Virus record (IMG/VR): IMGVR_UViG_3300006037_000026
Coordinates: 1-28,128 of that record
Direction: 5' to 3' (one strand)
Source of the DNA: a virus
Length of the DNA: 28,128 bases
Shown here: one piece after another, positions 10,330 to 28,110 of the stretch
How the letters are laid out: each line of letters starts with the position of its first letter
Position numbering within the stretch: position 1 is the stretch's first letter
The notes under the pieces: generated by a model
The model's database searches: none
Seen by the model: only the letters and a program-made list of their open reading frames with translations
Told to the model about the DNA's origin: nothing
Position numbers and translations under genes: made by a program

Positions 10330-10351
10330 TTTGTTGTTACAGAGCAACAAA
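10330..10351. repeat. 7-bp inverted repeat between divergent promoters
   Basis: TTTGTTG (10330-10336) and CAACAAA (10345-10351) are perfectly inverted around 8 bases. The element lies between the putative connector promoter and the endonuclease promoter and could be an operator; no T run follows, so it is not a clear terminator. Confidence 0.3.
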
Positions 10352-10356
10352 GATGA

Positions 10357-10386
10357 TTGCATTGTTCAGCTTCACTGAGGTACAAT
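10357..10386 (+). promoter_or_regulatory. Putative promoter of the homing endonuclease gene
   Basis: TTGCAT (10357-10362) and TACAAT (10381-10386) are separated by 18 bases and lie 20 bases before ATG 10407. The -10 matches consensus at five of six positions and the -35 at three of six. It gives the plus-strand insert its own expression signal. Confidence 0.45.
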
Positions 10387-10406
10387 CAGGCCAGATTGGA
10401 GTGACT

Positions 10407-12047
10407 ATGGCTAAATTGACTTTTGAAGATGCGGTTGTGAAGGCTAAGGCTGTGCACGGGGACACCTATAAGTACACCGGGTTGACTCGGGAAGGGATTT
10501 ATGTTTACTTGGAGATGGTGTGCAAGGACCATGGGGCGTTTAGGCAAACTGTCAGTAACCATGTGTCCGGTAAGAAAGGCTGCGTTAAGTGTGGAGGTAA
10601 ATTCCCACACACATTGGAGACGGTTAAAGAAGCTGCAGCTAAGTATGAGTTTGGCTACGACTACTTGGAACTCATCCGTGGTGGGAAATATCCTAAGTTA
10701 AGAATGCAATGCGCAAGCCATGGAGAATTCACTATGAACTTGTACAACCATTTGTCTGGCAAGGGTTGTGAGAAATGCGGGGAAGAAGAAATCCAGACAC
10801 CTCTAGAGGAGGTAAGACAACGAATATTGGAGAAAATGGGGGCTAAATACAAACTAATAGGTGAAGCAGATAGGAACACTTCTGACGCTAGACAGTTTGA
10901 AATTGAGTGCCCAGATCATGGTAAGTGGGTGGCTACTTTATCGGGCATAGGTTTTGGCCATAGGTGCAGGGGTTGTGGTGACATTGCCAGAGTTGAAAAA
11001 GTAAGAGTTAGAATAGAGGATGTAGAAGCATCAGTAAAGGGAACTAATGCAGAGAAGTTTAAAATTATGGGTGTGGACCTTGTTCAGCTTACAGGTAAAA
11101 TTGCCAGCGTGGTAACTGCTGAGTGTCTCGAACATGGACAATTCACCAGAAGAGCTGATATGTTTGTTAAAGGGTATGGCTGTCCAGTCTGTGCTGGAAG
11201 TCTTGGGTCTGGCACACTATTCGACTGGCTTAGAACGTTAAAGGTTGAAGTTGTGCCTGAGGTACTGCTTGGAACAGGTAAACAGCGATGGGATTTTTAC
11301 CTGCCAAAACAGAAGTTAGCTATTGAGTATAACGGTACGCTATGGCACTCCTCCTACTATAAGTCTTCTACATACCATCGTGACAAGTCTCTGGCATCAC
11401 TCGCTGTAGGAGTACGAACCATTCATATATGGGAAGACGAGTGGCTGGAAAAACCTGAAATTGTAAAGAACGTGGTAAAGGCAGCTTGTGGGTTACTGAC
11501 TGAAAAAATGTACGCCAGAAAGCTGATCGTCCGAGTTGCAGACGGAGCACAGGATTTTTTAAATGCTAACCACATACAGGGATTTTCCAGAGGCTCCAAT
11601 TACCTGGGGCTATATCAAGGCGCTACCTTGGTAGCAGTCCTAGGGTACGCCCTTAGAGACACAGGAAGAGGTAAAGGGTATGACAGTAGCAAGTGTGAGA
11701 TAACTCGTTATGCTTCTTCTATTAGAGTTGTGGGAGGTTTCACCAAGCTTCTTAAAGCTTTACTAAAACTACACCCCACAATCAAGACAGTAGCTACGTT
11801 CAGTGATACAAGAATCTTCTCTGGAGATATGTACGCAGCGACAGGTTTCAAAGAAGTAGAGAAGCTAAAGCCGGATTATTTTTACGTACAGAAGGGTAGA
11901 CGTGTACACAAGACTGCGTTGATTAAAGGGCGGCTAACCCTTCCTGAGGGGGTACCGGACTCGTGCACTGAATCTGAGAGAGCGGATGCACTGGGGTACT
12001 CAAGAGTATATGACTGTGGCAAGATCAGGTGGGAGTACACACCATGA
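10407..12047 (+). CDS. Free-standing homing endonuclease (DUF723-like repeats, Vsr/EDxHD-type nuclease, DUF7487-like C-terminus)
   Basis: A 546-residue protein, opposite in strand to all surrounding genes. ATG 10407 has GGAG six bases upstream; the longer frame from 10263 has no RBS. Residues 1 to about 265 hold four zinc-ribbon repeats of the form C-x2-HG-x-F...H-x2-G-x-GC-x2-CG (for example CKDHGAFRQ...GCVKCGG; CASHGEFTM...GCEKCGE), as in DUF723 regions of phage homing endonucleases. A nuclease domain follows: RWDFYLPKQKLAIEYNGTLWHS, then YHRDKSL, whose acidic and His residues fit the Vsr-like EDxHD class. The C-terminus (FLNANHIQG, CEITRYASS, FSDTRIFSGDMYAATGF) matches the GNAT-like domain fused to many such enzymes. 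DNA here is more A/T-rich and lacks the ACTTGC word common in nearby genes. It is probably a selfish insertion between gene boundaries. Confidence 0.85.
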   Translation: MAKLTFEDAVVKAKAVHGDTYKYTGLTREGIYVYLEMVCKDHGAFRQTVSNHVSGKKGCVKCGGKFPHTLETVKEAAAKYEFGYDYLELIRGGKYPKLRMQCASHGEFTMNLYNHLSGKGCEKCGEEEIQTPLEEVRQRILEKMGAKYKLIGEADRNTSDARQFEIECPDHGKWVATLSGIGFGHRCRGCGDIARVEKVRVRIEDVEASVKGTNAEKFKIMGVDLVQLTGKIASVVTAECLEHGQFTRRADMFVKGYGCPVCAGSLGSGTLFDWLRTLKVEVVPEVLLGTGKQRWDFYLPKQKLAIEYNGTLWHSSYYKSSTYHRDKSLASLAVGVRTIHIWEDEWLEKPEIVKNVVKAACGLLTEKMYARKLIVRVADGAQDFLNANHIQGFSRGSNYLGLYQGATLVAVLGYALRDTGRGKGYDSSKCEITRYASSIRVVGGFTKLLKALLKLHPTIKTVATFSDTRIFSGDMYAATGFKEVEKLKPDYFYVQKGRRVHKTALIKGRLTLPEGVPDSCTESERADALGYSRVYDCGKIRWEYTP

Positions 12048-12350: not shown

Positions 12351-13562
12351 TTAAGGTGTGATCACCATTGCATCAAACAGTCGCAGGTCAGTGTCACCGA
12401 AGGTACGGAACACTTCCTCGGACCAGTCCATTCGCATACTCGTGGTGCGCTTCATCGCGTACTCTTCAACCGCGTTGTAAATAGCACTGGTGTCGCTCAC
12501 CATCGTGATAGCTGCGGACGCATCCAGAGCATAGATGGTGTTGGCTGGCACTGGACCACCATCAGTAGCAGGTTCAACCAAGAAGATTTTCACATCACCA
12601 CCGAAGGTGTTGTTGATCATCACGCCTTGTGGGTCGATACGAGCCAGCGTTGGGTCATAATTCACAGTACCGGGGCGACCAGTACGACCTTCAACCTTCA
12701 GGTACGTGTCCAGGTCCATGATCGCATGCGTGATCTTGCGGAACTTGCGATTGCGGGCCAGGAACTTCAGCCAAGCGCGATGGGTCAGCACACCACCAGT
12801 AGATGCTGCATCTAAGCTGGACGAAGCCACCACAGGGACAGCACCCACCACCAGATCAGCATTACCGTTGAACAAGTCGCTCACGTAGCGGTACGCACGT
12901 TCGTCACGTTCCACTTCCAGATAACGCGCCGTGGTCATGGTCACGAAATCCAGAGTCGTAGCACGCAAGGCTTGGTCCGTCCACTCCATACCAATTGACC
13001 ATGCGCCTATGCGACGGATGCGGTCATGGGTCTTGAAGGTCAGCATCTTGTGTGGGTATGCGCCCTGCACAGCACGACCAGCCTTGGCTTGTTGAGGGCC
13101 ATCTGGGGTGTTGTAGTCAATGACTGGCTGCTCGAAAACACCAGTGTTGACCGACAAACGCGTACCGACCATGCTGTCAAAGGTCACAATGTCAGTCGTG
13201 CGGTCTTTGGCGACTTCAGACTCAATGCGGTCGATGATCGAGATGACCGTCAGAGCACGGGAAGCTGTACCGAAAGGTGCAGTGTTGGCTGCAGTATTAG
13301 ACACCGAAGCGTCAATACCCAACAGCTCACCCATAGACTTGGCACGAATACCAAATGGGTTTTCCTTGCCTGGACTGCAGATACCAGCAGAAGCTTGGAA
13401 CTGACGGAATGCAGGACCAATCTCCAGATTGGCATCTGGGAACTTGTTGTTGATGTATTGCGCAGGAGTGCTACCAGCAGCCTTGGCACCTTGCAGCATT
13501 TCCTCTGCAGTGATTTCGACTTCTTGTTGCGAACCGTCGCTGTCGATAAATTTGAAACCCAT
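12351..13562 (-). CDS. Major capsid protein (HK97-fold expected)
   Basis: A 403-residue protein (MGFKFIDSDGSQQEVEITAEEML...). The order decoration protein, capsid, connector and the sequence features fit a major head protein: N-terminal charged arm, then ASRALTVISIIDRIESEVAKDRTTDIVTFD, an internal VERDERAYRYVSDLFNG helix and RAWLKFLARNRKFRKITHAIMDLDTYLKVEGR (a spine-helix and nucleotide-like 'measured position' segment common in these proteins), ending in RLFDAMVITP. ATG 13562 has GGGAG seven bases upstream. It should be the most abundant virion protein; the gene is followed by a tetraloop hairpin. The plus-strand frame of 534 codons overlapping it is a shadow. The HK97 fold is inferred from context. 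Confidence 0.88.
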   Translation of the reverse strand: MGFKFIDSDGSQQEVEITAEEMLQGAKAAGSTPAQYINNKFPDANLEIGPAFRQFQASAGICSPGKENPFGIRAKSMGELLGIDASVSNTAANTAPFGTASRALTVISIIDRIESEVAKDRTTDIVTFDSMVGTRLSVNTGVFEQPVIDYNTPDGPQQAKAGRAVQGAYPHKMLTFKTHDRIRRIGAWSIGMEWTDQALRATTLDFVTMTTARYLEVERDERAYRYVSDLFNGNADLVVGAVPVVASSSLDAASTGGVLTHRAWLKFLARNRKFRKITHAIMDLDTYLKVEGRTGRPGTVNYDPTLARIDPQGVMINNTFGGDVKIFLVEPATDGGPVPANTIYALDASAAITMVSDTSAIYNAVEEYAMKRTTSMRMDWSEEVFRTFGDTDLRLFDAMVITP

Positions 13563-13577
13563 GATTTACTCCCTGTA

Positions 13578-14054
13578 TTAGATACGTTCGATGACACCAA
13601 CAGTACCGACAGCACCCGTGCCCACAGGGCCGAGACTCACGACACGCCAGTTGAATTTAGCTACCGTTTGGGCAGTGGCTTTACGCACCTTGGGGAAACC
13701 ATTTGCGTTAACCGTACCCTTGGCTTCTGCTGCACCAGCAACCACCAGATCATTGATGGCAATAACACCAGTACCGTCAGCCTGGATGCCGTCGAACGTC
13801 ACGCGAACGCGGCCTTTTTGCAGCACACCACCAATGGTGTAGCCATTCTGAGGTGCCAGCTCAATGCTGTAGACAACACCTTCAATTGCGTCACCAGCTG
13901 CGCAGTTGTCGTAGCGGGACTCTGCCACCAGCTTGGAAAACTTGCCGACTTCAGCTTGGGTGACTTGATTGACAGCACCAGTGCCAGCACCGTAGCGCAC
14001 AGCTACGACTGCCTCATCTGGAACAACGGGAGAGATAAAGTGATCGCGTGCCAT
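13578..14054 (-). CDS. Putative capsid decoration (cement) protein
   Basis: A 158-residue, Val/Ala/Gly-rich, beta-rich protein (MARDHFISPVVPDEAVVAVRYGAGTG...). It lies between the protease/scaffold gene and the major capsid gene, the classical place of head decoration proteins such as lambda gpD, which trimerise on the expanded capsid. An alternating hydrophobic pattern (EGVVYSIELAPQNGYTIGGVLQKGRVRVTF) supports a beta structure. ATG 14054 has AGGGG upstream and starts 10 bases after the previous stop. No specific family motif is recognised, so the role rests on position, size and composition. Confidence 0.6.
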   Translation of the reverse strand: MARDHFISPVVPDEAVVAVRYGAGTGAVNQVTQAEVGKFSKLVAESRYDNCAAGDAIEGVVYSIELAPQNGYTIGGVLQKGRVRVTFDGIQADGTGVIAINDLVVAGAAEAKGTVNANGFPKVRKATAQTVAKFNWRVVSLGPVGTGAVGTVGVIERI

Positions 14055-22267: not shown

Positions 22268-22465
22268 ACTCACAATCGACTGAAAGCCAAACTGCAGAAT
22301 CAAGTGCACTACTATCCAATCGAGACTTGTTTTGCAGAAGGTAGGTCATACCGTGAAGCTGCGATGCAAGCTGGACTCGCAAAAGGGCGCTTGCTGCGTG
22401 ATGCACAGATAGAAAGCATCCGGATTCACTACAGAAGCCCGTACTATTTTGGAACTTCAATTTAG
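22268..22465 (+). other. In-frame coding-like extension after the membrane protein stop
   Basis: Directly after the TGA the same frame stays open for 65 codons and looks protein-like (HNRLKAKLQNQVHYYP, later GRSYREAAMQAGLAKGRLLR and IESIRIHYRSPYYFG). No ATG with an RBS precedes it; GTG 22304 is the best possible start. It may be a separate small basic helical protein or the broken 3' half of a longer membrane gene. Its last codons overlap the first iteron copy. Confidence 0.35.
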
Positions 22466-22694
22466 GTTTGGAACTTCAATATTGGCCAAAAAGAGGGGTA
22501 TAACTTCAATATTGAGGCCTCAAAATCGCCTTCAGTGTTGAAGTTATACCCCCTCAATATTGAAGTTCCAAAAACGGACTCTAAGCGGGATGCACCAATT
22601 CAGGGCACAAAAAGTGCTTGGAACTCTACTATTGGCCTCAAAAACAGGTTTGGAACTTCAATATTGACCCAAAAAACGAGGAACTTCAATATTG
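22451..22694. repeat. Eight-copy iteron-like array, core GGAACTTCAATATTG
   Basis: Copies on the plus strand start at 22451, 22470, 22500, 22620, 22652 and 22680; two are inverted at 22533-22547 and 22555-22569. Four (22470, 22555 inverted, 22652, 22680) are identical over 15 bases; 22451, 22500, 22533 and 22620 diverge. The copies at 22500 and 22533 are part of a perfect 15-bp inverted repeat (22495-22509 with 22538-22552). Such arrays bind initiators, partition proteins or repressors. The region is AT-rich and ends at a strong hairpin. Confidence 0.85.
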
Positions 22695-22707
22695 ACCCAA
22701 AAAATTT

Positions 22708-23025: not shown

Positions 23026-23190
23026 CTCTACCACTCAAGGGGACCAATCTATAGAGCCTAATTTTTTTTACGTTTTTCTAAACAGTCCCTTAAAGCTCCA
23101 ACTTTTGTTGAAAGTAAACCTTTTAGGAGCCTGTTTGAAAAACGTTTTCTTTTTTTAGGCCAAAGCAAGCGCACCCCTTGAGTGGTAGAG
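23026..23190. repeat. 165-bp nested inverted repeat
   Basis: Outer arms CTCTACCACTCAAGGGG (23026-23042) and its inverse (23174-23190) are perfect over 17 bp. Inside lie further arms: GCCTAA / TTAGGC, ACGTTTTTC (23070-23078) with GAAAAACGT (23137-23145), AAACAG / CTGTTT, and GCTCC / GGAGC, closing on a CAAC-TTTT-GTTG loop. The whole can fold as one long interrupted stem, as DNA cruciform or RNA, 45 bases before the accessory operon. Confidence 0.7.
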
Positions 23191-23532: not shown

Positions 23533-24390
23533 ATGCCCGGTACCGCCACAAACATCCCCGCCACGGCCTCCAGCAGCCCCGCCAGCAGCCCTGACATAAG
23601 ACTTGCTACCCAGCCCTCAGAAACCCTTGCTGAGGCCCCTGAGGCTCAACAATCCAGACAGGACGCACTTGCCTTAAGCACCCTGCTCTTAGGCACCATG
23701 AGCGGGACAAGCTCTCGCGGAGAAACCTTGCTAGGCACCCTGTTCGACGCCACTCTAGGCCGTCTCTTCGCCGTCTCTTCACCCGACCCCAGCAATTCGG
23801 CCCCCGTGCCCATCTGGCACGCCTCACAAGACCCTATGGTGCCCGTCCACGGCCACGGACAAAGCCCACCACCCACAGAAGGCCCACGTATGCCACCCAT
23901 CGCCTGGCCAGGCCCCTCCAGCGGGCCTAATCCCGCCCTCACGTCCGACACGTCCCTCACGTCCGACACGTCCGACACGTCCGACACACAACTTGCACCC
24001 CGGCAACCCGCACCCCTCCACACCCAACGCACCATGTTGGAAAGGGGCACCCGCGTCATCATATGGAAGGAAACGCCGCGTCAACCCAGCTACAAGATCA
24101 TGGAGACTTGGCTGGGCTGGGTCACCTACGGCCCAACAGGCCAAGACCGAACCTTCAACACACTTGCTGAGGCCGAAACGCACATGGAATCCCTGTGTAC
24201 GTTCAGCCGTTTTGTGGCGGACAGAACCAACCACAGAGACTTCTTTGCACTGATTGAAGAGGACGGTTATTGGACTAACAGCCGCGAAACGTTTGAAGAA
24301 GCGGAGCGCAGCAAACGTTGGACAGAAAACAGCCGAATTGTGTATGTGTCCCAACTTGCAAAGCTGTGGGAAAACGGAGAGGTGTATTGA
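23533..24390 (+). CDS. Pro/Ser/Thr-rich protein with C-terminal folded domain, unknown function
   Basis: A 285-residue protein; ATG 23533 is chosen because GGAG lies eight bases upstream, 11 bases after the previous stop. About the first 170 residues are low complexity and probably disordered (Pro, Ser, Ala, Thr), including a TSD repeat from a 9-bp tandem array. The last 120 residues look folded and aromatic (RTMLERGTRVIIWKETPRQ, YGPTGQDRTFNTLAEAETHM, NHRDFFALIEEDGYWTNSRETFEEAER). The family is not recognised. It is followed after two bases by the first repeated-domain gene. Confidence 0.65.
   Translation: MPGTATNIPATASSSPASSPDIRLATQPSETLAEAPEAQQSRQDALALSTLLLGTMSGTSSRGETLLGTLFDATLGRLFAVSSPDPSNSAPVPIWHASQDPMVPVHGHGQSPPPTEGPRMPPIAWPGPSSGPNPALTSDTSLTSDTSDTSDTQLAPRQPAPLHTQRTMLERGTRVIIWKETPRQPSYKIMETWLGWVTYGPTGQDRTFNTLAEAETHMESLCTFSRFVADRTNHRDFFALIEEDGYWTNSRETFEEAERSKRWTENSRIVYVSQLAKLWENGEVY
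23941..23985 (+). repeat. Five 9-bp tandem repeats (ACGTCCGAC)
   Basis: Five in-phase 9-bp units ACGTCCSWC, with the second unit variant (ACGTCCCTC), encode TSD-TSL-TSD-TSD-TSD in the disordered part of the Pro-rich protein. The unit length keeps the reading frame, so copy number could vary by slippage without breaking the gene. Confidence 0.85.
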
Positions 24391-24392
24391 AA

Positions 24393-24737
24393 ATGAGTCA
24401 ACTTGCTAAAGGATTTCCCATGATCTACCCTAAAATTGACCTGCCATCGCACCTTAAGCCTGCGATGCAGAACCTGTACTTCTACTACAAGCGCACCTAC
24501 ACAGGCATTTATCTGTGCTTCGCGGCATCCGAGGCTAATTTTCAGGGAATTCTCTCAGAGAACGATCAGCTGGGAATCGAAAATCTGATAGCAGACTCAC
24601 TTGAAGATTGGAGTTTTCTGAGCAGCTGGTTGTTCGAGAAGAATATCCACCAGAAAGCCGGATGGCTAGACGCCCTATCCCTCGACCAGGAACGCCAATT
24701 CAGAATCGACTGGATGAAGGAGATATTGAAATGCTGA
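24393..24737 (+). CDS. Repeated-domain family protein, single copy (A)
   Basis: A 114-residue protein from ATG 24393 (GAGAGG upstream). It is one copy of a domain that recurs in this operon: PSHLKPAMQNL, then GIYLCFAAS, then IENLIADSLEDW, LSSWLF and a final FRIDWMKEIL. The same landmarks occur at 25236 and three times at 25570. The pattern (short N-terminal helix, Y/W-L-C-F/L-A hydrophobic helix, D/E-A/S-L helix, terminal R-x-D-W-L/M helix) implies an all-helical fold of about 100 residues. I do not recognise a known family. It overlaps the cupin-like gene by seven bases. Confidence 0.75.
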   Translation: MSQLAKGFPMIYPKIDLPSHLKPAMQNLYFYYKRTYTGIYLCFAASEANFQGILSENDQLGIENLIADSLEDWSFLSSWLFEKNIHQKAGWLDALSLDQERQFRIDWMKEILKC

Positions 24738-25234
24738 ATCACATCAAAACGATGGCGCACAGCCCGTTGCGCAATTACAGAATCCCAGGCTTGACAAGCA
24801 GCTTAGTCAGAAACGTGCGCCTGTTTGAGTGCGAAAGAAGCCATGAAGAGGCTATTGTGCCGCACTCACACCGCTTCGATTTTCAATGTCTTGTCCTAAG
24901 AGGTGTTGTGCGGAATGTGTTGTGGTTACCGAACGCTCAAGGTGATCTGTTCTCACTTTCTACTCTGGAGTACGGAAACAAGCCGGGCGAGTACACACAA
25001 ACCAGGGGTACCGCACAAGGTTACTTCAGCCGCAGTGAAACACGGTACATGGAAGGCGACACTTACGGTATGCGCCACACCCAGATTCACTCCATCTTCT
25101 TTGAACGTGACACGGCAGTGCTCTTCTTTGAAGGGCCTGAATTGACCAACGAAACTTGCATTCTTGAGCCTGTCTCGAATGGCAAGGCTGTTCCGACCTT
25201 TGAAACCCGTCCTTGGATGTTCCAGAAAGATTAA
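24731..25234 (+). CDS. Cupin-like protein
   Basis: A 167-residue protein from ATG 24731 (AAGGAG eight bases upstream; the frame to 24608 has no RBS). PHSHRFDFQCLVLRGVVRNVLW is a good cupin motif 1 (H-x-H...G), with a plausible second part HTQIHSIFFERDTAVLFFEGP, where the His and Phe residues fit motif 2. Cupins are small beta-barrels that often bind a metal; enzymatic or sugar-binding roles vary, so the substrate cannot be told. It lies between two repeated-domain genes and overlaps the first by seven bases; it ends one base before the next ATG at 25236. Confidence 0.7.
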   Translation: MLNHIKTMAHSPLRNYRIPGLTSSLVRNVRLFECERSHEEAIVPHSHRFDFQCLVLRGVVRNVLWLPNAQGDLFSLSTLEYGNKPGEYTQTRGTAQGYFSRSETRYMEGDTYGMRHTQIHSIFFERDTAVLFFEGPELTNETCILEPVSNGKAVPTFETRPWMFQKD

Positions 25235-25235
25235 T

Positions 25236-25568
25236 ATGTTCAAATTTCTGCTTCGGAAACCGAAGTTCCCTGAACTTGCCCTCCCGAGCCACCTCAAACC
25301 TGCCCTGCGAATGGTGGAAGAGGTGTTTCTGCAACAAGATATGCAGTGGTTGTGTCTGGCAGTAGACACAGCACGTCGTAAAGGCAAGATTACAGAGCAG
25401 GAGGGTCAGGAGCTTGACCCGTACATCAAGAAAGCCCTGGGTTGCTCCTTTCTGACCTCTTGGTACATCAAGGAGGGCGGCAAGTCCCACTTGTGGCTGG
25501 ACAACCTGACCTACGAAGACTGCCGCAACCTGCGAATCGACTGGCTGGATCACCTCTTGAAAGACTGA
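25236..25568 (+). CDS. Repeated-domain family protein, single copy (B)
   Basis: A 110-residue protein with the same landmarks as the gene at 24393: LPSHLKPALRMVEEV, then QWLCLAVDTARRKGKIT, then DPYIKKALG, SFLTSWYI and a terminal LRIDWLDHLL. The shared PSHLKPA and R-I-D-W motifs make paralogy with copy A clear. ATG 25236 has only GAAAG upstream; the longer frame from 25164 lies inside the cupin-like gene. It ends one base before the next gene (ATG 25570). Function unknown. Confidence 0.75.
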   Translation: MFKFLLRKPKFPELALPSHLKPALRMVEEVFLQQDMQWLCLAVDTARRKGKITEQEGQELDPYIKKALGCSFLTSWYIKEGGKSHLWLDNLTYEDCRNLRIDWLDHLLKD

Positions 25569-25569
25569 A

Positions 25570-26541
25570 ATGAACAAGCACCCAACCACCAAACTGCCCA
25601 AAACCCTTGAAGGTACCTTCAAACTGTTGCAAGCTCATTATGAGAAGGTTGAAACTACTTACCTGTGCTTTGCCTTGGCGAGCCTCTTTGAACTTGAGGA
25701 AATCACAGTAGCCCAATACCATGAAGCCAAAACCTTCATCGAAGATTGTCTGGGCGGACCCCTCAACGATTTGGGCGGTTACTACCTCCGCCAAGGTGTG
25801 CGAGTGTCAGACAAAAGAGCCATCCGCAAGGACTGGCTCAACTGGCTACTTGCAAACGTCGCAAACGTCGCAAACGTCGCAAACGTCGAGTCCGACTACA
25901 TTCTGCCAAGCCTGCCAATGCCTGAAAACTTGCGTCCGGTGTTTGAAATGGTGCGGAACAGGTTGCAGCACCAGCGTTTCCCCTACATCTGCTTTGCTCT
26001 GCGTGACTTGGAGGATGATGGGTGTATTACCTATACTCAACACCAAGCTGCAAAAGACTTCATCATGGACGCCTTCGAGGGGCTCACCACGGAATTGGTC
26101 GAGTACATGATGAAAAAGGCGGGCTGCACAGACCGCGAAGACATGCGGCAGTGGAAGATGAAGTATGACCAGCGCCAGACACGCATCGACTGGTTGGACA
26201 AGATGCTTGCTCGACCGATGCCGGAAACGGAGCCAAAACGCCGCTTCCCCGACACACCTTGCCCAATGCACATCAAGGCAATTTTCCGCAAGCTGGACTA
26301 CAACCCAAAATCCGGAGACATGACGTTCCTGTGCCTCTACATCGCCAACGCGTGCTCCTTAAGATGGATTGAAAAGGAGTACGCTGTCGATTTCATCAAC
26401 AAGGCGTTGGGCGAGCAAGGTTATAGAAGTAATACCCGCACCTTGAACCTGTGGCTGGAGAATGAGCATGGCTCGAAACAGCAAGATGTTAACCAAAACC
26501 GTAAGGAGTGGATCGAGTGGATCGAATGGCTGAAGTCCTGA
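25570..26541 (+). CDS. Three-copy repeated-domain protein
   Basis: A 323-residue protein made of three consecutive copies of the domain seen alone at 24393 and 25236. Copy 1 (residues 1-94): TYLCFALASLFELEEIT, TFIEDCLGG, AIRKDWLNWLL. Copy 2 (about 108-215): MPENLRPVFEMV, PYICFALRDLEDDGCIT, DFIMDAFEG, TRIDWLDKML. Copy 3 (about 226-323): MHIKAIFRKL, TFLCLYIANACSLRWIE, DFINKALGE, KEWIEWIEWL. An in-phase ANV tandem repeat (25852-25887) links copies 1 and 2. It probably arose by fusion of paralogues. The function is unknown; a scaffold or multivalent binding protein is possible. Confidence 0.75.
   Translation: MNKHPTTKLPKTLEGTFKLLQAHYEKVETTYLCFALASLFELEEITVAQYHEAKTFIEDCLGGPLNDLGGYYLRQGVRVSDKRAIRKDWLNWLLANVANVANVANVESDYILPSLPMPENLRPVFEMVRNRLQHQRFPYICFALRDLEDDGCITYTQHQAAKDFIMDAFEGLTTELVEYMMKKAGCTDREDMRQWKMKYDQRQTRIDWLDKMLARPMPETEPKRRFPDTPCPMHIKAIFRKLDYNPKSGDMTFLCLYIANACSLRWIEKEYAVDFINKALGEQGYRSNTRTLNLWLENEHGSKQQDVNQNRKEWIEWIEWLKS
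25852..25887 (+). repeat. Four exact 9-bp tandem repeats (GCAAACGTC)
   Basis: Four perfect copies encode ANV-ANV-ANV-ANV, exactly at the junction between repeated domains 1 and 2. Like the 9-bp array at 23941 it keeps the frame and contains ACGTC. It looks recent and may vary in copy number, changing the linker length. Confidence 0.9.
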
Positions 26542-26804
26542 TTACACCAGAAGTCCTTCGCAATGTTGCGGAGGCTTACTACCGCAAGCCAGATCGACTG
26601 GAATGCTCAGCTGGCTTATGTCATGCGTTGGATGAATTGCAGGGCGTCAATTACGGCACAACGGAAACCTTCCTGAAGAAGGTTACCATGAGCCGTGACT
26701 GGAAACGGCATGCCATCTACCTGAGAGGTGATTGGGAGCAGAAGGCACTGTTCCTGCTCCTACTTGCCGAGTGGATGGAACTTGACCCGGAGTACTTCAA
26801 ATGA
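26517..26804 (+). CDS. Small protein, possibly divergent member of the repeated-domain family
   Basis: A 95-residue protein. GTG 26517 is preferred because a perfect AAGGAG lies eight bases upstream; the later ATG 26526 is 17 bases away from it. It overlaps the end of the three-copy gene. The sequence TPEVLRNVAEAYYRK, then CSAGLCHALDELQGV, then FLKKV, and a Leu-rich C-terminal helix (LFLLLLAEWMEL) loosely repeats the family landmarks (LxP helix, LC-x-A-L, aromatic helix). Homology is uncertain. It ends in ATGA shared with the 22-codon remnant. Confidence 0.6.
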   Translation: MDRMAEVLITPEVLRNVAEAYYRKPDRLECSAGLCHALDELQGVNYGTTETFLKKVTMSRDWKRHAIYLRGDWEQKALFLLLLAEWMELDPEYFK

Positions 26805-26869
26805 AACACCTCAGCTCCCACCAAGGCGTACTTGCCATGTTTGACAAAGCAATTAAGGCTGCATTATGA
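26801..26869 (+). pseudogene. 22-codon remnant of a DUF6197-like gene, still with start, RBS and stop
   Basis: MKHLSSHQGVLAMFDKAIKAAL matches the C-terminus of the next gene (HTHEGVMALFDKAIKEAT); the DNA shares TTTGACAAAGCAAT. GGAG lies eight bases upstream and ATGA overlaps connect it to both neighbours (26801-26804, 26866-26869). It looks like the last codons of a paralogue whose front part was deleted, kept as a translatable coupling minigene. Confidence 0.65.
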
Positions 26870-27198
26870 CACCCAAAGAAGTTCTTATTAAGGCGAAAGC
26901 CTTGATCGCTGACCGCAGAAACTGGATTCAAGGTATGGAAGCGAGAGCCGCCAGTGGACAGCCTCTTCCACCAGAACACCCAAGTGCTTGCAGGTTTTGT
27001 TCAATTGGTGCGGTTGAACGAGTGCTTGCGCCGCTTCCAGCTGCTGAGCACTACCGACTGAAAGAGCAGACGCTCAACGAGATTGAAAGCCACATCACCA
27101 CTTCAGCCGTAATTGGCAAGTTGTGGCGATTCAACGACAGCCATACACATGAAGGTGTGATGGCACTTTTTGACAAAGCAATCAAGGAAGCAACATGA
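26866..27198 (+). CDS. DUF6197-like small protein
   Basis: A 110-residue protein (MTPKEVLIKAKALIADRRNWIQGM...). It has the pattern of phage DUF6197-type proteins: helix and W near residue 20, a Cys-rich turn with CRFCSIGAVERVL (C-S-I-G), then helices and a final HTHEGVMALFDKAIKEA (N/D-x...h-x-E-x-V-x-x-x-D-x-A-I). The function of that family is unknown to me. AAGG lies seven bases upstream of ATG 26866. It is joined by ATGA to the remnant before it and to the next gene. Confidence 0.65.
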   Translation: MTPKEVLIKAKALIADRRNWIQGMEARAASGQPLPPEHPSACRFCSIGAVERVLAPLPAAEHYRLKEQTLNEIESHITTSAVIGKLWRFNDSHTHEGVMALFDKAIKEAT

Positions 27199-27581
27199 AC
27201 AAAGCTCGACTTCAAGAACTTGCGAACCTGCTTCGCAAGGTGCCACAAGACAAGTTCGATCTGCACAATTGGCGCGGCACGGCTAAAATCTACTGTGGTG
27301 CGTCTGAACTCACAGACGCCCACTTACAGGACGAAGCCTGCGGCACATCAGGCTGTGCTGTGGGTTGGGCCTGTGCCCACAAGCCGTTCCAAGATCAAGG
27401 CTTGAAGTGGGACGGTACGCCAAGTTTCGGTACTTTCCGAGCGTGGTGTGCTACTCGACAGTTCTTCGACCTGAATCCAGAGGGCTCACACCACCTATTT
27501 GACTCCGTTCACTATGTGGGCAAACCTACTCCGGCCCAAGTGGCTGACCGCATTGAAGATTACATCAGGAGAAACGCATGA
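27195..27581 (+). CDS. Small protein with GCAVGWA motif (DUF6197-related?)
   Basis: A 128-residue protein (MNKARLQELANLLRKVPQDKFDL...). The central CGTSGCAVGWACAHKPFQ has the C-A-V-G-W pattern seen in many small phage proteins and recalls C-S-I-G in the preceding gene, followed by an aromatic segment (FRAWCATRQFFDLNPEGSHHLFDS) and a C-terminal helix (TPAQVADRIEDYI). The domain is common in phage accessory operons, without a known function as far as I can tell. AAGGA precedes the ATG, and ATGA overlaps occur at both ends. Confidence 0.65.
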   Translation: MNKARLQELANLLRKVPQDKFDLHNWRGTAKIYCGASELTDAHLQDEACGTSGCAVGWACAHKPFQDQGLKWDGTPSFGTFRAWCATRQFFDLNPEGSHHLFDSVHYVGKPTPAQVADRIEDYIRRNA

Positions 27582-27850
27582 ACGACCAACGACGCAAAGC
27601 CATCAGCCTGCTGCTGGACAAGGTAACTGAAATGCGGACTACCGTAGAAGACCTCCGCAGTGAAATCGAAACCATCAAAGACGAGGAGCAAGAGTACTTC
27701 GACAACATGCCGGAAGGCTTGCAAGGCAGTGAAAAGGGCGACAAGGCTGGATCGACCATCGACAGTCTCGACACTGCCGTGCAGGCTATGGACGCCATCG
27801 AGACAGAACTTGAAGGGGCTGAAACCGCACTTGATGAGGCAATGTCATGA
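27578..27850 (+). CDS. Small coiled-coil phage protein
   Basis: A 90-residue acidic protein. Residues 1-38 (MNDQRRKAISLLLDKVTEMRTTVEDLRSEIETIKDEEQ) and the last 30 (IDSLDTAVQAMDAIETELEGAETALDEAM) are heptad-like helices flanking a conserved-looking turn, EYFDNMPEGLQGSEKGDKA. Proteins with the same DEEQ-x-Y/F-DNMPE-x-L-Q pattern recur in phages and plasmids, function unknown. GGAG lies seven bases before the ATG; ATGA overlaps join both neighbours. Confidence 0.7.
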   Translation: MNDQRRKAISLLLDKVTEMRTTVEDLRSEIETIKDEEQEYFDNMPEGLQGSEKGDKAGSTIDSLDTAVQAMDAIETELEGAETALDEAMS

Positions 27851-28110
27851 ATAATCAAGAATTCTTCACCAAAACCCTGAACCACTTGCGCAAGCAGGGT
27901 GTTGCTGCGATGGGGCCGAACGAGTACGGTGGTATGGAATGCAAATATCGAGGTGAAAATGGCACCTCTTGTGCAATTGGCTGTCACATTCCAGACGACA
28001 AGTACCAGCCCACAATGGAAGACCTGACGGTGAAGGCTCTGCTGAACACATACCCAGACCTGCAGCCCATCTTTGAAGGAACTGTCTGTGAAGAAGGCCC
28101 AACCCACTAA
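27847..28110 (+). CDS. Small protein with C-A-I-G motif
   Basis: An 87-residue protein (MNNQEFFTKTLNHLRKQGVAAM...). The core NGTSCAIGCHIPDDKYQP shares C-A-I-G with the genes at 26866 and 27195 and is a recognisable small phage family with an N-terminal helix, the Cys-turn, and an acidic helix (TMEDLTVKALLNTYPDL). GAGG precedes the ATG, and ATGA overlaps the previous gene. The remaining 18 bases to the window edge hold no gene start. Confidence 0.7.
   Translation: MNNQEFFTKTLNHLRKQGVAAMGPNEYGGMECKYRGENGTSCAIGCHIPDDKYQPTMEDLTVKALLNTYPDLQPIFEGTVCEEGPTH

Follow-up and report, generated by a model that had tools for sequence, protein, structure and literature searches.

A putative superfamily of small helical phage proteins with repeated gene expansions and a three-domain fusion

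The window analyzed here, 28,128 nucleotides of viral DNA (IMG/VR record IMGVR_UViG_3300006037_000026, positions 1 to 28,128), carries five diverged copies of one domain, which by profile comparison are homologous. Two of these form single-domain proteins (A and B), and three (T1, T2, and T3) lie in one fusion protein (T). The domain appears to belong to a superfamily of phage proteins that spans PHROGs 8421 and 2614 and, on weaker evidence, PHROG 35632. The three-copy fusion is unique in the sampled phages and is known from one contig. The present analysis adds the unification of these PHROGs, a signature for them, their repeated expansions, and the three-domain fusion; the parts were previously separate families without known function.

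RESULTS

Five copies of one domain in a gene array

The genes for A, a cupin-like protein, B, T, and a small protein termed E all lie on the plus strand and almost abut, and copy A is preceded by a purine-rich Shine-Dalgarno-like stretch (Table 1). Each copy was left out in turn and scored with a profile HMM built from the others. The left-out copies scored from 36 to 68 bits, whereas the top score among approximately 1,900 scored shuffles per copy was 7 to 10 bits. These profiles link all five copies, as the preliminary description of this DNA had proposed. Pairwise protein identity between the window copies was 19 to 33%, and comparison at the DNA level found no significant similarity, which together argue that the duplications are old. 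Gene E, put forward earlier as a doubtful sixth copy, scored below the best shuffles and is not a member; it had no family match in Pfam or PHROG searches.

Table 1. Positions of the array genes, domains, and linker repeat in the window
Feature	Position	Strand	Evidence
Copy A, single-domain protein, 114 aa	24393-24737	+	Leave-one-out HMM 56 bits
Cupin-like protein, 167 aa	24731-25234	+	phrog_8313 E 8e-15; PHSH + downstream His
Copy B, single-domain protein, 110 aa	25236-25568	+	Leave-one-out HMM 68 bits; phrog_8421 E 1e-7
T, three-domain fusion, 323 aa	25570-26541	+	Three HMM domains; phrog_2614 E 7e-12, phrog_8421 E 1e-11
Domain T1	~25570-25863	+	Leave-one-out HMM 41 bits
T1-T2 linker, in-frame 9-bp tandem repeat, protein ANVANVANV	25852-25888	+	TRF 4.1 copies, 100%
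Domain T2	25885-26211	+	Leave-one-out HMM 57 bits; six-helix predicted structure
Domain T3, most diverged copy	26212-26538	+	Leave-one-out HMM 36 bits
Gene E (ATG 26526), rejected as sixth copy	26526-26804	+	3.4 bits

The fusion proposed for T was borne out as a single uninterrupted frame of 323 residues with three domain matches, which scored 110, 139, and 112 bits with a profile that includes those domains. Both domain junctions are open, so that a false fusion would take at least two independent errors. A near-identical contig, L023, ends at window position 23113, and the fusion therefore rests on one contig, with no second assembly across it. The linker between T1 and T2 is a perfect 9-bp microsatellite, (GCAAACGTC)x4.1. 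Tandem repeats of 9 bp occur at 23940-23987, 25852-25888, and 26506-26529, in neighboring genes and with two of the three within T, and are possibly slippage-prone linkers.

The structure of T2 was predicted with AF2 from an alignment in which the remaining window copies were joined by four relatives from Pseudomonas phages. In keeping with the helical domain anticipated from the sequence, the model predicts an all-helical protein of six helices (pLDDT 87.7, pTM 0.80); the model of full-length T was poor (pLDDT 56). Compared to solved structures, the T2 model had no significant fold match. Among viral models searched with Foldseek, BcepSauron proteins were the best neighbors (probability 1.00, E 0.014), followed by KPP21 among others, and LUZ7 and LKA1 ranked below these. 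All were at E 0.014 or worse; these modest values were taken as a lead and then checked by sequence.

A profile that bridges separate PHROGs

The window copies had no sequence relative in Pfam, NCBIfam, or PDB, and none of them corresponds to a characterized family. Weak matches to Pfam NUC129, PADLOC DpdC (0.03), and PDB Rabaptin (0.02, a coiled coil) were judged to be due to chance. T matched PHROG 2614 across two stretches, and both T and B matched PHROG 8421 (Table 1); A alone matched neither and scored 56 bits with the profile of the other four copies. All three PHROGs (8421, 2614, and 35632) are annotated "unknown function." The PHROG 8421 and 2614 groups do not detect each other, and the window copies match both (hhalign of the window copies versus the PHROG 2614 group, E 7e-6), so that the window bridges them.

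A profile seeded with the five window copies only was iterated to convergence and collected 36 domains. Members scored at least 27 bits, compared to a top score of 9.3 bits among 13,552 decoys made by reversal or shuffling; unrelated phage loci searched alongside yielded no domains. The cysteine of the [YFW]-x-C helix was invariant in 36/36 domains, the five window copies included, and the R-x-x-W of the last helix was present in all 26 domains whose alignment extends that far, the alignment stopping before this motif in most rows of the Pseudomonas group. A tblastn search of 50,697 phage records with the fusion or B alone found no match because single copies are too diverged. Profile searches of genome contigs (Pseudomonas profile; Bcep176 gp40) also found no match, and thus no cellular members at that sensitivity, and the TerL relatives in IMG/VR were short contigs in which the domain was absent. 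A term search of a jumbo-phage review (PMC7824862) found no description of the superfamily.

Distribution and expansions in other phages

The 36 domains were single or paired in Pseudomonas phages, formed a cluster in PhiW-14, and numbered 16 in BcepSauron. With tblastn, PHROG 2614-type small proteins were found in approximately 200 P. aeruginosa phage records, with one copy in Litunavirus, a pair in LUZ7, and one or two adjacent copies in Pakpunavirus, some of which had a distant extra copy. The earlier label "unrecognised" therefore holds in that no characterized family matches the domain and fails in that members were already present in PHROGs and in these records. The PHROG 2614 proteins of Litunavirus, LUZ7 (ORF05-06), and Pakpunavirus share the [YF]-x-C helix with the window copies but have a C-terminal helix of the form W-x-x-[FY]-x-x-W-x-[YF]-x-D-L instead of R-x-x-W. 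Several Pseudomonas phage members were deposited as "wall-associated receptor kinase," a name that looks wrong for proteins of the helical family.

PHROG 8421 matched six proteins of the Delftia phage PhiW-14 (gp169, 170, and 172-175) within 2.6 kb, interrupted only by gp171, and was matched also by the BcepSauron copies. Its proteins differ from the window copies in that they are somewhat longer (118-148 aa) and are encoded by single-domain genes only. The five-copy profile matched BcepSauron, a Burkholderia jumbo phage, at seven places (best E 2e-8); 13 of its domains lie in one gene run (gp390-396 and gp398-403) and 3 in gp344-346. The BcepSauron copies resemble those of the window in their R-x-x-W ending and as the best fold neighbors of T2 but occur as sixteen separate genes with no fusion. 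Three of them, gp391, gp398, and gp400 (10336-10650, 12748-13056, and 13504-13860 of locus L047), carry the deposited names "histidine kinase?" or "HTH Cro," which look wrong for members of the helical family. In the stretches read, the Burkholderia phages Bcep176 and CSP3 had one copy each and Maja at least two. The CSP3 copy (L051 3146-3457) lies between the genes for the small and large terminase subunits, and Maja (L052 4587-8720) seemingly has four scattered copies (CPT_Maja_101, 100, 096, and 090), two of which are below the cut-off. PHROG 35632 comprises a tandem pair, ORF5 and ORF6, in the Pseudomonas phage LKA1, itself a weak fold neighbor of T2. LKA1 ORF6 joined the iterated profile at E 6e-10 and ORF5 was weak (E 0.16); the pair differs from the window copies in that R-x-x-W is not clear.

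In a tree of the copies, whose deep branches are weak, the copies grouped by phage lineage with 3 changes, the minimum, compared to 16.6 for shuffled labels, and a single clade of the window copies was neither supported nor rejected (p-AU 0.435). This clustering by lineage suggests that the expansions were likely independent in each phage lineage.

Selection on the BcepSauron array

The array genes of BcepSauron were compared to those of BcepSaruman. The dN/dS values were 0 to 0.31 where computable, and those of neighboring genes were 0 to 0.37. By this measure, the array in these two phages is under purifying selection, which argues that the copies are used. Positive selection on the BcepSauron array was rejected, the values being no different from those of the neighbors, and the "fast selection" surmised in the preliminary description is not supported. 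The second cluster has one gene more in one phage (three) than in the other (two), and identity there is 31-81%. The picture is one of conserved use with occasional gain, loss, or replacement.

The cupin-like gene between the copies

The start of the cupin-like gene overlaps the stop of A. Relatives of its product, 33-47% identical, were found by tblastn in 15 phage records, including those of Serratia Myosmarvirus, PhiW-14, and EBPR siphovirus 1, and PHSH and the downstream histidine were invariant in an alignment of six cupin-like relatives. Pfam Cupin_1 matched one relative only, at E 0.0013, and the window protein had no match. In the records holding cupin-like relatives, the helical domain was not found except in PhiW-14, where the relative lies approximately 18 kb away from the helical-domain array. 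The gene is indeed embedded among the copies, as noted before, but its relatives occur in phages without the domain. We rejected a partnership because there is no linkage to the helical domain elsewhere; the gene is probably a passenger, and a joint function is not supported by these comparisons.

DISCUSSION

With slightly less than even confidence, we favor the reading that the proteins of this family share one scaffold and are early, cytosolic, host directed, and not part of the virion, with each copy having its own target. Its members would be small all-helical phage proteins (approximately 95-150 aa) of one superfamily, duplicated independently by several phage lineages, that act early in the cytosol on host factors in takeover or counter-defense. 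A small core (Y/F-x-C in helix 2, W/Y-L, and R-x-x-W in the last helix) would keep the fold while the remaining sequence drifts, letting each copy hold a different host protein. Duplication would then allow one phage to reach several targets, and the fusion would provide one polypeptide with three binding units and flexible linkers. We infer host-protein binding, a distinct target for each copy, and multivalency of the fusion from the features described above. The net charge of the copies ranges from -10 to +7 and their pI from 4.5 to 9.9, a spread that is expected if the surfaces serve different partners; alternatively, the copies could share a single function and have diverged because constraint on it was relaxed.

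The assignment to the early class is a prediction based on genome position, and for the window we infer it from gene order only. The LUZ7 members (ORF05-06) fall within the region predicted to be early; the LKA1 members (ORF5-6) are near the left genome end. Predicted early-region hairpin promoters precede genes 1, 12, and 13 (PMC3715699). Searches of PDB, Pfam, and NCBIfam, libraries that hold few known anti-defense or host-takeover proteins, found no match to such proteins by sequence or fold. LUZ24 gp4, an inhibitor of MvaT, is an early "ORFan" takeover protein of a P. aeruginosa phage (PMC4635203). ORFans of this type are small, cytoplasmic, early, and host directed, and their likeness to the helical family is by analogy only. 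Anti-defense, host-takeover, or adaptor activities are plausible candidate roles. The 2014 screen of early ORFans by Wagemans reportedly covered N4-like Pseudomonas phages. It is rather unlikely, though conceivable, that the scaffold, repeatedly amplified by phages of Gram-negative hosts, serves as a modular counter-defense toolkit, with a different host or defense protein inhibited by each domain and the fusion acting as a multi-target inhibitor.

Other explanations were weighed against this reading. The copies may instead bind one another in a hetero-oligomer of which the fusion is the tethered form, the subunits and not the targets having diversified. Paralogous subunits often remain clustered, and the window copies are adjacent, in the same direction, and probably co-translated, with three of them fused in one phage. 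However, many phages, such as Litunavirus, have one copy and no need of a hetero-complex, and copy number in one cluster differs between BcepSauron and BcepSaruman; we consider this explanation improbable. A role in nucleic acid binding or transcription modulation, to which we assign a similarly low probability, would fit with the fact that small helical early proteins often have such functions, and one BcepSauron copy weakly matches the "transcriptional activator" phrog_1324 (E 0.0019). The absence of a recognized helix-turn-helix, zinc, or other DNA-binding family, the lack of a significant match to nucleic-acid-binding structures, and the acidity of many copies (net charge to -10) argue against it.

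Large phages carry many small uncharacterized genes in their accessory regions, and the cluster that varies between the sister phages does so in both copy number and sequence, as would be expected if recombination in an accessory region had left largely redundant or drifting duplicates that do little by themselves. The low dN/dS values of the array (0-0.31), its intact frames, and the fact that the cysteine and R-x-x-W never vary where covered make this distinctly improbable. That the copies are minor virion or assembly proteins is highly improbable: a structural module does lie in the same window, to the left and on the opposite strand, but the members in PhiW-14, BcepSauron, and Maja sit in accessory regions, those in LUZ7 fall within the region predicted to be early, and the virion proteins listed for LIT1 include neither of the small early products (PMC3715699).

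Members of the family, which we take tentatively to be host directed, occur in Burkholderia jumbo phages as well as in approximately 200 sequenced phages of P. aeruginosa and are filed there as hypothetical or doubtfully named. The window copies join PHROGs that are kept apart in databases and yield a clear signature. The apparently independent amplification suggests a scaffold worth reuse, and the family offers a defined gene set for screens of host targets and defense evasion.

Other features of the window

Direct and inverted imperfect repeats at 22464-22704, between the structural and early modules, possibly mark a control or origin region. An inserted 546-aa open reading frame at 10407-12047 (plus strand) runs opposite to the structural genes, matches DUF723, an MTES_1575-type nuclease, and Mom-like sequences, and has a G-rich skew of its own; it looks like a homing-type element with a possible DNA modification domain. 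The array is followed by genes for a DUF6197 protein (26866-27198, E 2e-14), a phrog_889-like protein (27195-27581), and a phrog_17693-like protein (27847-28110).
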